Source: a virus. From it: a DNA stretch of 30,063 nt. This document shows, one piece after another, positions 8,790-21,087 of this stretch. The translations under genes and the position numbers were made by a program. Below the pieces are notes generated by a model. That model ran no database searches, was not told the origin of the DNA, and saw only the letters and a list, made by a program, of their open reading frames with translations. Within the stretch, counting starts at the first letter, position 1, and each line of letters starts with the position of its first letter. The stretch lies in the IMG/VR virus record IMGVR_UViG_3300008012_000108, positions 1-30,063 of that record, one strand, 5' to 3'.

Positions 8790-8930
8790 TTACATCAAAT
8801 AATCTGCCGTGAAAGGCATCGGTACCATCTGATGTTGTTCAGGAGTGTAGAAGAATGGTGCAACCATTCCTCCGACAATTAGAAATGCAAACAGTGCGAT
8901 TCCTGTTGCTTCTTTTAATTTCTTAATCAT
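8790..8930 (-). CDS. Small membrane protein C of the hsp20 operon (46 aa)
   Basis: Starts MIKKLKEATG, followed by a hydrophobic stretch at about residues 11-28 and a short C-terminal tail rich in Pro and Met. The basic N-terminus favours an N-in single-span membrane orientation. The ATG at 8930 has an AAGGAG 5-6 nt upstream and overlaps the stop of the preceding small gene (ATGA). I do not recognise a family. The good ribosome-binding site, coupling and coherent hydrophobic segment argue that it is real in spite of its size. Confidence 0.68.
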   Translation of the reverse strand: MIKKLKEATGIALFAFLIVGGMVAPFFYTPEQHQMVPMPFTADYLM

Positions 8931-9079
8931 CTTTTCTCCTTAACATACCAGTTACGACATTCCTGTACTGATTCAGAAACACCATCTAAAACCTCTTGAG
9001 CACAACGCTCATCGAGTTTACGGTTGCTATCTCCGACTAGAAGGATGCCGACTAGTGTCATCGCAATTATCATACCCAT
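8927..9079 (-). CDS. Small membrane-anchored protein B of the hsp20 operon (50 aa)
   Basis: Residues 1-15 (MGMIIAMTLVGILLV) form a signal-anchor-like hydrophobic segment, followed by a charged tail of about 35 residues with two cysteines (CAQEVLDGVSESVQEC). The ATG at 9079 overlaps the preceding stop as TAATG and has no Shine-Dalgarno of its own, which implies translation by coupling. The two cysteines in a presumably periplasmic tail could form a disulfide; this is inference. No lipobox is present, so it is not an Rz1-type spanin. Family unknown. Confidence 0.66.
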   Translation of the reverse strand: MGMIIAMTLVGILLVGDSNRKLDERCAQEVLDGVSESVQECRNWYVKEKR

Positions 9080-9204
9080 TAGAAGAACCAACTAATGGCG
9101 ATCATAACGGGTGCTACTGCGAGTACGCCAAACAGTTGCGCGATTGCAATCATCTGGTCTTTTTTAGAGGAAATCCATTCCTCGCTTGTTGCTAAGTTTT
9201 TCAT
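9079..9204 (-). CDS. Small membrane-like protein A of the hsp20 operon (41 aa)
   Basis: Begins MKNLATSEEWISSKKDQ, an amphipathic N-terminus, then a hydrophobic segment from about residue 18 to the end (ending AISWFF), so most of the protein could span or lie in the membrane. The ATG at 9204 has an AAGGA Shine-Dalgarno and starts 10 nt after the hsp20 stop, placing it in the same transcript. Its stop overlaps the start of the next small gene (TAATG). No family is recognised. Confidence 0.68.
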   Translation of the reverse strand: MKNLATSEEWISSKKDQMIAIAQLFGVLAVAPVMIAISWFF

Positions 9205-9214
9205 TTGAGTGTCC

Positions 9215-9643
9215 TTAATGAGAATTGATTTCTATTTTTCTCGGACGCTTCTCTTCGGGTAGTTCTACTCTGAGTTTAATCACTAGTAGTCCGTTGACGA
9301 ATTCAGCTCCATCAACGACAACGTGGTCTGCGAGTCGAAATGTTTCCACGAATTTCTTCGTAGTAATCCCTTTGTGAAGATACTCACGAGTATCCTCTTC
9401 AGGATTTCCCTTGATGACTAGCACACCGGGTTTTGCTTCGATGTCTAGATCTTTCTTTTTGTAACCACCAAGGGCAAATTCCATGGCGTATTCCGTGTCA
9501 GAATATTTGATAATATTGTGACGAGGAAAACCCTTCTCGTTTGCGCCAGCGGCAGTTAGTCTTTCTATCTCATCCCATACATGGTCGAAACCAATGAAAC
9601 GAGAATGGGGGAACGAAAACACTTTAGTTCGTGTATTAACCAT
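9215..9643 (-). CDS. hsp20: Small heat-shock protein Hsp20 (alpha-crystallin domain)
   Basis: 142 residues. The N-terminus (FSFPHSRFIGFDHVWDEIERL) is followed by an alpha-crystallin domain from about residue 43 to 130 with the recognisable GVLVIKG strand (GxLxI.G signature) and a C-terminal RKIEI motif of the I-x-I type used for oligomer contacts. sHSPs hold unfolding proteins in an ATP-independent way; Hsp20 genes are common in marine T4-like phages, where a role in virion assembly or host proteostasis is proposed. The ATG at 9643 has an AAGGAG Shine-Dalgarno that is base-paired in a predicted leader hairpin. It has its own promoter and heads an operon with three tiny genes. Confidence 0.95.
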   Translation of the reverse strand: MVNTRTKVFSFPHSRFIGFDHVWDEIERLTAAGANEKGFPRHNIIKYSDTEYAMEFALGGYKKKDLDIEAKPGVLVIKGNPEEDTREYLHKGITTKKFVETFRLADHVVVDGAEFVNGLLVIKLRVELPEEKRPRKIEINSH

Positions 9644-9647
9644 TGCT

Positions 9648-9704
9648 ATCTCCTTATTTAATTAAGCAAGATTGTTGTCTATCGACCGGACAATTCCGCA
9701 TCGA
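9648..9704 (-). promoter_or_regulatory. Candidate ROSE-like RNA thermometer in the hsp20 leader
   Basis: The 63-nt leader can form two hairpins. Hairpin A (9682-9704): UCGA-UG-CGGA, AUUG loop, UCCG-G-UCGA. Hairpin B (9648-9672): AUCUUGCUUA pairs with UAAGGAGAU across an AUUAAA loop, nine pairs including one U-G wobble and one bulged G, which buries the whole Shine-Dalgarno. The anti-Shine-Dalgarno strand contains UUGCU, the conserved U(U/C)GCU motif of ROSE thermometers that control bacterial hsp20 genes. Structure is drawn by hand, not computed. Confidence 0.6.
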
Positions 9705-9712
9705 CACTATTA

Positions 9713-9741
9713 TATATACCACAAAACATCTTAAGAGTCAA
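9713..9741 (-). promoter_or_regulatory. Promoter of the hsp20 operon
   Basis: TTGACT (9736-9741), a 17-bp spacer and TATATA (9713-9718); an overlapping TATAAT lies at 9709-9714 with a longer, 21-bp spacer. The predicted start near 9706 gives a leader of about 63 nt. It looks like sigma70; no sigma32-type -10 is seen. Confidence 0.7.
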
Positions 9742-9773: not shown

Positions 9774-10145
9774 CTATTTCGAACCTATGTTATATTTTGG
9801 ACAGAGTTCCCATTGATTCTTATCTTTATGGGATATGATTTTAACTTGACGTAATGGAGCTTGTTCGGCCATCATATTTTTATTAATAACAGATATCAAT
9901 CCCCAATCGCACAATAGTTGTGCAATGGTATTTCTTCTAAAGATATCGTTGTCTTCTAAATTAGATTTTTTACCGTCAAGTAAAAACAATTCTTTGAAAT
10001 GGACAATGAAGTATCGGCCTTGTTTGTGTAATATGTGACAGGATTGGAAAAGTTTATTTTCTTTCCTAGAGGCAACGCCCATACGTGTCAATGTTTCACG
10101 AACCTTTAAAAAATCATCAGGTTCATTTAAGACAATTTCCAACAT
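9774..10145 (-). CDS. regA: RegA translational repressor
   Basis: 123 residues from the ATG at 10145; the product aligns from its first residue with T4 RegA (122 aa): DFLKVRETLTRMG, QSCHILHKQGRYFIVHFKE and DWGLI are the diagnostic stretches, and the end PKYNIG matches too. RegA binds ribosome-binding regions of many early mRNAs and shuts off their translation. An upstream GTG at 10178 would overlap gp62 and add 11 residues unlike the family, so the ATG is preferred. No Shine-Dalgarno is visible before it and it starts 19 nt after the gp62 stop, so initiation may be weak or coupled. Confidence 0.95.
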   Translation of the reverse strand: MLEIVLNEPDDFLKVRETLTRMGVASRKENKLFQSCHILHKQGRYFIVHFKELFLLDGKKSNLEDNDIFRRNTIAQLLCDWGLISVINKNMMAEQAPLRQVKIISHKDKNQWELCPKYNIGSK

Positions 10146-10164
10146 TTCTGCTGGAGACCACAAT

Positions 10165-10542
10165 TTATTTTCTTCCACCCTTATTAATCCTTATTCTTAA
10201 GTGTTGTATATTTTGGGTGGTAAGTAAGGATAAAACTTGTTTTGCCTTTTCATTGCTGTAACCATAATACTCTTTTACCACTTCCAAATCATCAACGATT
10301 TCAGGTTTCAACCATTTTGAAAATCGTTTTCTTTTTCTTACAATATTTATAAGAAAATCGAATTGAAGTTTATTATCGAGCATGTATTGACTGTTCATAG
10401 CATTTGCAACAGCAACGGTGTCTTGAAAATAAGATAAAGATCTATTAACCATATAGGGCTGATATGCGGATTCTGTTTCATCATCCACAATCATATTTTT
10501 TTTAGTGTAAGTTATTGCAGTTACATAATCAAAGGGATTCAT
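10165..10542 (-). CDS. 62: Clamp-loader small subunit gp62
   Basis: 125 residues from the ATG at 10542, which overlaps the stop of the sulfotransferase gene (TAATG) and has a GGTGG Shine-Dalgarno within that gene's end. An upstream GTG at 10551 is less likely. The beginning NPFDYVTAI and the central SYFQDTVAVANAMN stretch fit the gp62 family; the order gp44-gp62-regA-gp43 also supports it. It is shorter than T4 gp62 (187 aa). With gp44 it forms the ATP-driven loader that places the gp45 clamp on primer-template. The C-terminus is basic. Confidence 0.85.
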   Translation of the reverse strand: MNPFDYVTAITYTKKNMIVDDETESAYQPYMVNRSLSYFQDTVAVANAMNSQYMLDNKLQFDFLINIVRKRKRFSKWLKPEIVDDLEVVKEYYGYSNEKAKQVLSLLTTQNIQHLRIRINKGGRK

Positions 10543-19650: not shown

Positions 19651-19680
19651 TAAAACATATTATTGTTTTTATTAGATATC

Positions 19681-21087
19681 TTAAGCGAGAATATTGTCTA
19701 CGCGGAAGATTCTGTAGTACTGGTTAGAACGAGCTGATCCTAAACCTACTCCATTAGCAGCGCCAGAAGCACCTTCAGAGTAAGGGTTAGATACCATACC
19801 ATAACGAGTCTTGAACCCGATACGTGGTTGGAAGTCATTCTCGCCAACAGCACGTACCATTTGGAGAGGTACGTAAGGGCAGTAGAATACACCAGCGTCA
19901 TAAGGATTGGTGCCTTTGTAACCAACAGTTACATAGTCAGCAACCGCATATGGGTCGATGTAAACTTTAGTGCGACCGTTGAGAACACCAGCGAAGGTGT
20001 TACCAGTGTCATCTACGTTCAAAGAAGTAGATAGAGCAGGTGCGTAATCAAGCATACCAGCTGCAGTCAAGGCAGTAGCAACATCTGAAGAACAGATGAT
20101 GAAGTTACCCTTACCACGACGAGTTTCTTTAGCGATTACGTTACACTCACGCTCCAATTGAACCAAAAGTCCCTTGAACTTCTCAACTGACCAACGACCA
20201 TCAGCGTCAGTAGCGAGGTCAAAGATACCAGCAGTCTGGATACCAGGCTGTCGTGAACCAATCTTCGCTTGGCTGTTGATAGTTCGGATAACTTCACGAT
20301 TAATTTCAGCAAGAATCTCAGTTGACAAAATGTTTGCCAATTCAGTTTCAGCGTCAAGACCGTGGATTGCCTTAAGATCTTGAGCAAGTTCTAAGGTGTA
20401 CTCTGCTTTCAATGCACGAGACTTAGCAACAACGCTAGTCTTGTCAATGGTGAAACCCATTTCATGGAAAGTGCGACCAGGATCCCCCGCCGCGTCAAGT
20501 GCACCAGTGCCTAAGTTTTCAGCAACAGTCGTTGACATTGCTCCACCAACCGTAGGTACGTAAAGATCGCCTGAGTCAACAATAGATGAATCAGCTTTAT
20601 CACCAGCTCCTAGGCCAGGATCAGAAGCACCGACCAAACCAGAAGGACCACGAGCATTGTGTCCATCTACAGTTGAGTCACCTGAGTAAGCAGTTTGAGC
20701 TTCGTTGAACAATGCTTCTGTACCAGCTGCACCAGCACCAGCACTTGGAGTCTGGTATTGTGAACGCATTGCAAAGATAAGACCAGTAGGACCAGTCATA
20801 GGTTGTACGCCACATACGTCATATGCCATCAAATTAGGCATAGCACGACGAACAAGGGCGATGAGTACAGGGTTCCAGTTATCAGCTGCACCACCAGTTG
20901 CAACTGAACCAGCACCAGCTGCGTTACCCGCAACTTCATTAATTACACCCTGTTCGATGAGGGCTTTTTCTTGGTTCTCAAGTACTGCAGCTGTTACACT
21001 ACGACGATGTGAGTCAACAATTTTACCAGCAGACTCTTCGTTAAGTACTGGAGACCATTTTTCTACTAATCGATCATACGATTCCAT
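19681..21087 (-). CDS. 23: Major capsid protein gp23
   Basis: 468 residues. The HK97-type T4 capsid protein is recognised by NWNPVLIALVRRAMPNLMAY followed by DVCGVQPMTGPTGLIFAMR (about residues 70-108), the most conserved part of the family. The first ~50 residues are the scaffold-interacting delta domain; INE at 49-51 fits the gp21 cleavage rule (I/L-x-E) and would give the mature N-terminus VAGNAAG. Strong AAGGAG Shine-Dalgarno. It follows gp22 by 11 nt and ends at a UUCG terminator, as expected for the most abundant late transcript. Codons look optimised for high expression (GC-richer than neighbours). Confidence 0.97.
   Translation of the reverse strand: MESYDRLVEKWSPVLNEESAGKIVDSHRRSVTAAVLENQEKALIEQGVINEVAGNAAGAGSVATGGAADNWNPVLIALVRRAMPNLMAYDVCGVQPMTGPTGLIFAMRSQYQTPSAGAGAAGTEALFNEAQTAYSGDSTVDGHNARGPSGLVGASDPGLGAGDKADSSIVDSGDLYVPTVGGAMSTTVAENLGTGALDAAGDPGRTFHEMGFTIDKTSVVAKSRALKAEYTLELAQDLKAIHGLDAETELANILSTEILAEINREVIRTINSQAKIGSRQPGIQTAGIFDLATDADGRWSVEKFKGLLVQLERECNVIAKETRRGKGNFIICSSDVATALTAAGMLDYAPALSTSLNVDDTGNTFAGVLNGRTKVYIDPYAVADYVTVGYKGTNPYDAGVFYCPYVPLQMVRAVGENDFQPRIGFKTRYGMVSNPYSEGASGAANGVGLGSARSNQYYRIFRVDNILA

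Follow-up and report, generated by a model that had tools for sequence, protein, structure and literature searches.

The window analysed here is a stretch of 30,063 nucleotides from the genome of a T4-like aquatic phage (IMG/VR record IMGVR_UViG_3300008012_000108). It encodes a 142-aa small heat-shock protein, Hsp20, whose PF00011 match was also obtained in a genome search, and directly upstream of the hsp20 leader lies regA, the gene for a T4-type translational repressor; regA is also found upstream of hsp20 in many cyanophages. Direct reading of the minus strand from 9741 to 9641 yields a promoter-like TTGACT-17-TATATA, a leader of ~63-66 nt, and then the start codon AUG of hsp20. Behind the gene lie three small ORFs, mostly hydrophobic, and a Pfam scan of two of them gave no match. 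The features of the locus are listed in Table 1.

Table 1. Positions of the genes and leader features at the hsp20 locus of the window.
Feature	Position	Strand	Basis
regA, T4-type translational repressor	9774-10178	minus	PF01818, E = 4.6e-43
Promoter-like TTGACT-17-TATATA	9713-9741 (TTGACT 9741-9736, TATATA 9718-9713)	minus	direct reading
Hairpin 1, stable 5′ stem, loop AUUG, one bulged G (9699)	9680-9706	minus	minimum free energy fold, covariation
Hairpin 2, putative thermosensor masking the Shine-Dalgarno, bulged G 9667	9648-9672	minus	minimum free energy fold, covariation, hairpin energy
ROSE core UUGCU, anti-Shine-Dalgarno strand	9665-9669	minus	core counts in 153 dissected viral leaders
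Shine-Dalgarno AAGGAG of hsp20	9650-9655	minus	direct reading; fully paired in hairpin 2
hsp20 start codon AUG, directly behind the leader	9643-9641	minus	
hsp20, controlled gene	9215-9643	minus	PF00011, E = 4.3e-15
Three small, mostly hydrophobic ORFs behind hsp20	8791-9204	minus	

Promoter and predicted fold of the hsp20 leader

The promoter claimed in the preliminary description is present as a sequence, but it was not reported by a simple promoter scan, and an arrangement of the type TTGA[C/A]-N15-19-TATAWA is kept in only 32 of 66 relatives, about half. The late-type TATAAATA was found in 31 of the 66 relatives. A heat-shock sigma promoter was not identified for the phage hsp20 leader.

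The minimum free energy fold of the leader including the AUG (9706-9641) consists of exactly two hairpins with -16.1 kcal/mol. In this predicted fold, which has not been chemically probed, hairpin 2 pairs AUCUU(G)CUUA with UAAGGAGAU and leaves G9667 bulged. The Shine-Dalgarno hairpin with UUGCU and a bulged G was thus recovered with the coordinates and the pairing originally proposed, and the sequence reads as claimed. The 5′ hairpin is likewise present and interrupted, namely by its bulged G, but its extent is that given in Table 1 and not 9682-9704 as first described. Since the z-score of the fold is -2.1 and four out of 200 shuffled leaders folded equally well, folding energy alone represents only modest evidence. 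A pairing of UUGCU with AGCAA over the start codon, which had also been suggested to block initiation, is possible and nearly isoenergetic. However, only 22/64, 1/60, and 0/40 leaders in the three groups described below contain the required AGCAA, and this alternative was rejected for lack of conservation.

Covariation and distribution of the two-hairpin element

Eighty viral contigs encode an Hsp20 that is 63-100% identical to that of the window, and 30 distinct leaders of the window's relatives were aligned for covariation analysis. Compensatory changes on both sides were observed in 12 of the 20 pairs, with 93.5% of the cells paired. The covariation score of 0.408 exceeded all of the 500 shuffles (0.147 ± 0.013) as well as all controls with slid partners (≤0.097). 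For hairpin 1, eight out of 11 pairs changed on both sides; its stem varies freely (UA, AU, CG, and GC at one position), whereas the bulged G and the C that follows it are invariant. For hairpin 2, four pairs changed on both sides and 91.9% of the cells were paired; covariation is seen in the pairs on either side of the core (UA to CG, UA to AU), and the core and the Shine-Dalgarno are nearly fixed. A separate per-pair count is biased for hairpin 1, because this hairpin was located by pairing, and does not serve as primary evidence there. The pairing is thus conserved in related phages, and it recurs in distant ones.

Two further viral hsp20 groups were fetched with the Hsp20 proteins of cyanophage Syn33 and pelagiphage Mosig as seeds. 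As MAFFT alignments of all three groups, or of the two distant ones, misaligned the hairpins, group-wise models (A1/R1 and A4/R2) were used. Model R1, built solely from the window's relatives, was run on ten whole records; its best match was the hsp20 leader in all ten, no other match was better than E = 0.06, and it also found the leaders of C48C1 (1.7e-5) and Melnitz-3 (1.3e-4), which are not part of the model. Model R2, built from cyanophages and with covariation support of its own, likewise matched the hsp20 leaders in 17 phage genomes, including PA5oct from outside the model at 1.1e-4, but missed or weakly scored the more distant pelagiphage, DSL-LC02, and C48C1 leaders. The matches of both models are almost confined to hsp20; therefore, judging from sequence comparison, the element looks like a dedicated and conserved companion of phage hsp20 genes and not like a peculiarity of the window phage. 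A weak covariance match at 19656-19721 was rejected, as it spans the 3′ end of a coding ORF (19681-21087) and the bases after its stop codon. In another record (L239, minus strand), a hairpin resembling hairpin 1 (GUACGAU-G-CUGG..UCAGGUCGUAC, with a bulged G) and a following UUUGCAAAGGAG stand before a different small gene; the site lies upstream of an ORF starting at 1081 (reverse complement), near the sliding clamp, and the Shine-Dalgarno is not masked in the computed fold.

The core motif, defined as UYGCU or UYGCA followed by GGA at no more than 60 nt from the start, was detected in 169 out of 170 distinct viral hsp20 leaders from the three diverged groups, compared to 36 out of 574 (6.3%) Shine-Dalgarno-bearing leaders of other genes on the same contigs. 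Conservation of the core was equally evident in the 153 viral leaders that could be dissected, which carry UUGCU (104), UCGCU (48), or UUGCA (1); UYGCU accounts for 152 of them, and the core G is present in all 153. The same two hairpins were found in the annotated isolates C48C1, Mosig, Melnitz-3, HTVC115P, and Syn33, and furthermore in HTVC103P, PA5oct, DSL-LC02, S-PM2, and cyanophages of many genera, so that annotated cyano-, pelagi-, methylo-, and Pseudomonas phages carry the design. One-base changes of the core occur in two isolates, PA5oct (UUGCG) and DSL-LC02 (AUGCU). A blastn search with one cyanophage leader matched 291 phage records. The isolate survey did not extend to the Salmonella, Vibrio, and Escherichia phage records. 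Two UNVERIFIED records with ibpA-like genes, "Pseudomonas phage Y7" (L084, OQ572409.1; Pseudomonas-type) and "Campylobacter phage A11a" (L389, MG065691.1; E. coli-type), were not counted as phage isolates, since their ibpA genes look bacterial and probably represent contamination; the set of 170 leaders nevertheless includes the Y7 record.

Several single leaders deserve mention. A cyanophage-type hsp20 leader (L162) is the exception in that it has kept hairpin 1 and lost the U(U/C)GCU strand; translation of this hsp20 might not depend on temperature. In the freshwater cyanophage S-SRM01 (L397, MW015081.1), the annotated hsp20 start lies upstream of the element, which the covariance model places at 157099-157156, almost wholly within the annotated coding sequence. 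The start (L397 from 181) is probably annotated too far upstream, with the element preceding an internal Met. In the large Pseudomonas phage PA5oct (L391), hsp20 with its ROSE-like leader is followed by a gene for a ClpS adapter, possibly forming a protein-quality-control pair.

These comparative data bear on two other explanations. A structure arising by chance in mRNA around an AU-rich start site would be compatible with the only moderately unusual folding energy, but it is refuted by the covariation, by the frequency of the motif in hsp20 leaders versus controls, and by the matches in unrelated phage families, and we give it virtually no weight. The core string might alternatively be a DNA site for a host regulator, as the hsp20 gene of cyanophage S-PM2d (S-PM2d130) has been listed with a putative Pho box (PMC10976474) and this string overlies the ROSE core in S-PM2 (L424, AJ630128.1, 6150-6200). 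This reading is contradicted by the published gel shift of the same authors, who observed no PhoB binding and no differential expression of the gene (PMC10976474). Moreover, the string pairs with the Shine-Dalgarno, adjoins the start codon, and belongs to the covarying RNA fold, which leaves hardly any room for a Pho box.

Resemblance to bacterial ROSE elements and predicted response to temperature

The best Rfam match of the leader was ROSE_3 (RF02523), which aligned from end to end of the model with 29.9 bits and E = 3.4e-4 in the 601 nt searched. It was the only match with E < 1; freshwater-2 and the others in the leader all had E > 1. Thus, the best match belongs to a ROSE family, but ROSE and ROSE_2, the two models originally named for comparison, gave no listed match in these 601 nt, and the score does not meet the ROSE_3 gathering score of 43. 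The Pseudomonas-like leader L084 reaches 69 bits with ROSE_3. The failure at the threshold is explained by the diverged sequences of hairpin 1 and linker and reflects a model built on bacterial sequences, not the mechanism; the element is filed as ROSE-like.

In its construction, the leader resembles the ROSE-like thermometers of Pseudomonas ibpA (Krajewski et al. 2013, PMC3669281). Both have two hairpins, a bulged G in hairpin 2, pairing of U(U/C)GCU with the Shine-Dalgarno, G-C pairs flanking the core, and a length of ~60-70 nt before a small heat-shock gene, and the predicted energy of the phage hairpin 2 (about -4 to -8 kcal/mol) is similar to that of the Pseudomonas hairpins (-4.1 to -7.6 kcal/mol; PMC3669281). 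The phage version differs in its diverged hairpin 1 and linker, in being phage-borne, and in its sigma70-like or T4-late-like promoters, whereas a sigma32 promoter is used in Pseudomonas. Classical ROSE elements (Bradyrhizobium hspA, enteric ibpA) also precede small heat-shock genes and place U(U/C)GCU, the string by which bacterial ROSE elements are defined (PMC3669281), with an unpaired G opposite the Shine-Dalgarno, but they consist of three to four hairpins instead of two (PMC3669281). For the Pseudomonas ibpA elements, experiments have shown that hairpin 2 melts over the range of 25 to 42°C with hairpin 1 remaining closed, and that repression is locked when the core G is deleted (PMC3669281).

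The calculated energy of hairpin 2 in the window was -8.0 kcal/mol at 20°C, -5.8 at 30°C, and -4.3 at 37°C. A threshold of -5.5, about the strength quoted in PMC3669281 as needed to hinder initiation, is crossed at 32°C in the window and, by the same calculation, at 31°C in a Pseudomonas ibpA leader; the medians were 25°C for the pelagiphage-type and 26°C for the cyanophage group. For the isolated hairpin, these nearest-neighbour energies are compatible with temperature-dependent melting. In ViennaRNA ensembles including the coding sequence, the mean unpairedness of the window's Shine-Dalgarno was 0.40 at 5-25°C, 0.48 at 42°C, and 0.60 at 50°C; there was no clear low-to-high switch, and control genes showed a similar median unpairedness. 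The probability of the core C-G pair exceeded 0.5 at 15°C in only 41/60, 43/59, and 18/38 leaders. Energy models omit non-canonical pairs that are important in ROSE elements. Owing to this omission and to the ambiguous coding-sequence ensembles, thermal control of translation is inferred; it is likely but has not been shown. Thermal opening, set point, and effect on translation are all inferred from the like-built Pseudomonas elements.

According to the proposed mechanism, hairpin 2 with its U(U/C)GCU strand and bulged G would hold the Shine-Dalgarno at normal water temperature and thereby mask the ribosome-binding site. Upon warming, hairpin 1 would stay shut as a stable 5′ scaffold, while hairpin 2, with its predicted weakening near 30°C, would open and allow translation of the phage chaperone Hsp20. 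We conclude that the ~63-66-nt hsp20 leader is probably a short two-hairpin ROSE-type RNA thermometer. The preliminary description had arrived at this interpretation as well; Rfam, fold, and covariation favour it, but the effect of temperature on translation is only inferred. Its extension to the three small proteins encoded behind hsp20 is unsupported; at least two of the three ORFs have their own purine-rich Shine-Dalgarno-like stretch, and a ROSE element exerts its effect at the start site that it masks.

The small change of the coding-sequence ensembles with temperature might also be explained by a constitutive, temperature-independent brake, in which hairpin 2 lowers translation throughout and hairpin 1, which lies where the transcript is predicted to begin, protects the 5′ end of the mRNA. 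Nevertheless, the labile bulged G and the weak U-G/U-A core are kept though stronger pairing would be easy to evolve, and the hairpin energies lie within the range of working thermometers, which makes such a brake very improbable.

More serious, though still unlikely, is the possibility that the leader is mainly a protein-controlled operator, with Hsp20 repressing its own synthesis until drawn off by aggregates, or with RegA binding, and that temperature is secondary. E. coli IbpA represses its own mRNA via the 5′ UTR, which requires Arg93 and fails with Lys at this position (PMC10474464). At the equivalent position, all 64 pelagiphage-type and all 59 cyanophage-type Hsp20 proteins carry Arg, but the window's protein (GITTKKF) and 67 of the 68 proteins scored in its clade carry Lys and so lack the arginine expected of an IbpA-type operator. 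Self-regulation by Hsp20 is therefore possible in the former two groups and less likely in the window. The E. coli IbpA reference sequence used for this comparison was checked for length and Y34/R93 alone. Involvement of RegA would be in line with the position of regA directly before the leader in the window and in many cyanophages; however, the leader is also present where another gene precedes hsp20 (Mosig, HTVC115P, PA5oct). A pure operator would furthermore leave the fixed U(U/C)GCU and the bulged G unexplained. Control by a protein is compatible with a thermometer and does not exclude it.

Origin and significance of the phage element

Contigs binned as bacterial carry hsp20 genes with very similar leaders (Woeseiaceae, L384; Burkholderiales, L383). 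The Woeseiaceae leader reads GUGGAUGCC-UUCG-GGGUCCAC, then AACUUGCUU...AAAGGAG. Beyond these two, other weak R2 matches in gammaproteobacteria were not recognisable as hsp20 leaders. Based on the similar bacterial leaders, and without a phylogenetic tree, we infer a probable proteobacterial origin for the unit of hsp20 and thermometer, followed by divergence along with the phages.

In recent papers, the number of RNA thermometers known from phages is given as two or three, and ROSE-type elements are not among them (PMC10586365, PMC11182007). The known examples, lambda cIII, SPbeta blyA (PMC10586365), and a sigma70 gene of gut Caudoviricetes (PMC11182007), are, like the proposed element, temperature-responsive leaders in phage genomes; blyA and the sigma70 gene have fourU elements and cIII a two-conformation switch. 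In contrast to the element described here, none precedes hsp20 and none has been reported as spread over phage families. In the open-access literature, with subscription papers and preprints outside the scope, we encountered no report of a phage ROSE element, no paper joining cyanophage hsp20 with a thermometer, and no experiment on any phage hsp20 leader; two studies of cyanophage Hsp20 do not mention a thermometer. While the ROSE kind is already known, its phage-wide class and subfamilies appear to be new.

Phage RNA thermometers have been thought rare, whereas nearly every phage hsp20 leader examined here, including hundreds of cyanophage records, has a candidate. We tentatively suggest, as a possibility that falls somewhat short of even chances, that several phage families carry hsp20 and a dedicated RNA sensor together as a portable unit. 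The chaperone would then be made only when the host is under heat stress or when aggregates draw Hsp20 off the leader, independently of the host heat-shock sigma factor and even in cyanobacteria. If true, this would be the most widespread class of RNA thermometers known in viruses. Isolates such as S-PM2 and Syn33 make the thermometer reading testable. This reading offers an explanation, open to experiment, for the timing of chaperone synthesis by phages and for possible effects of warming on the infection of dominant aquatic bacteria.
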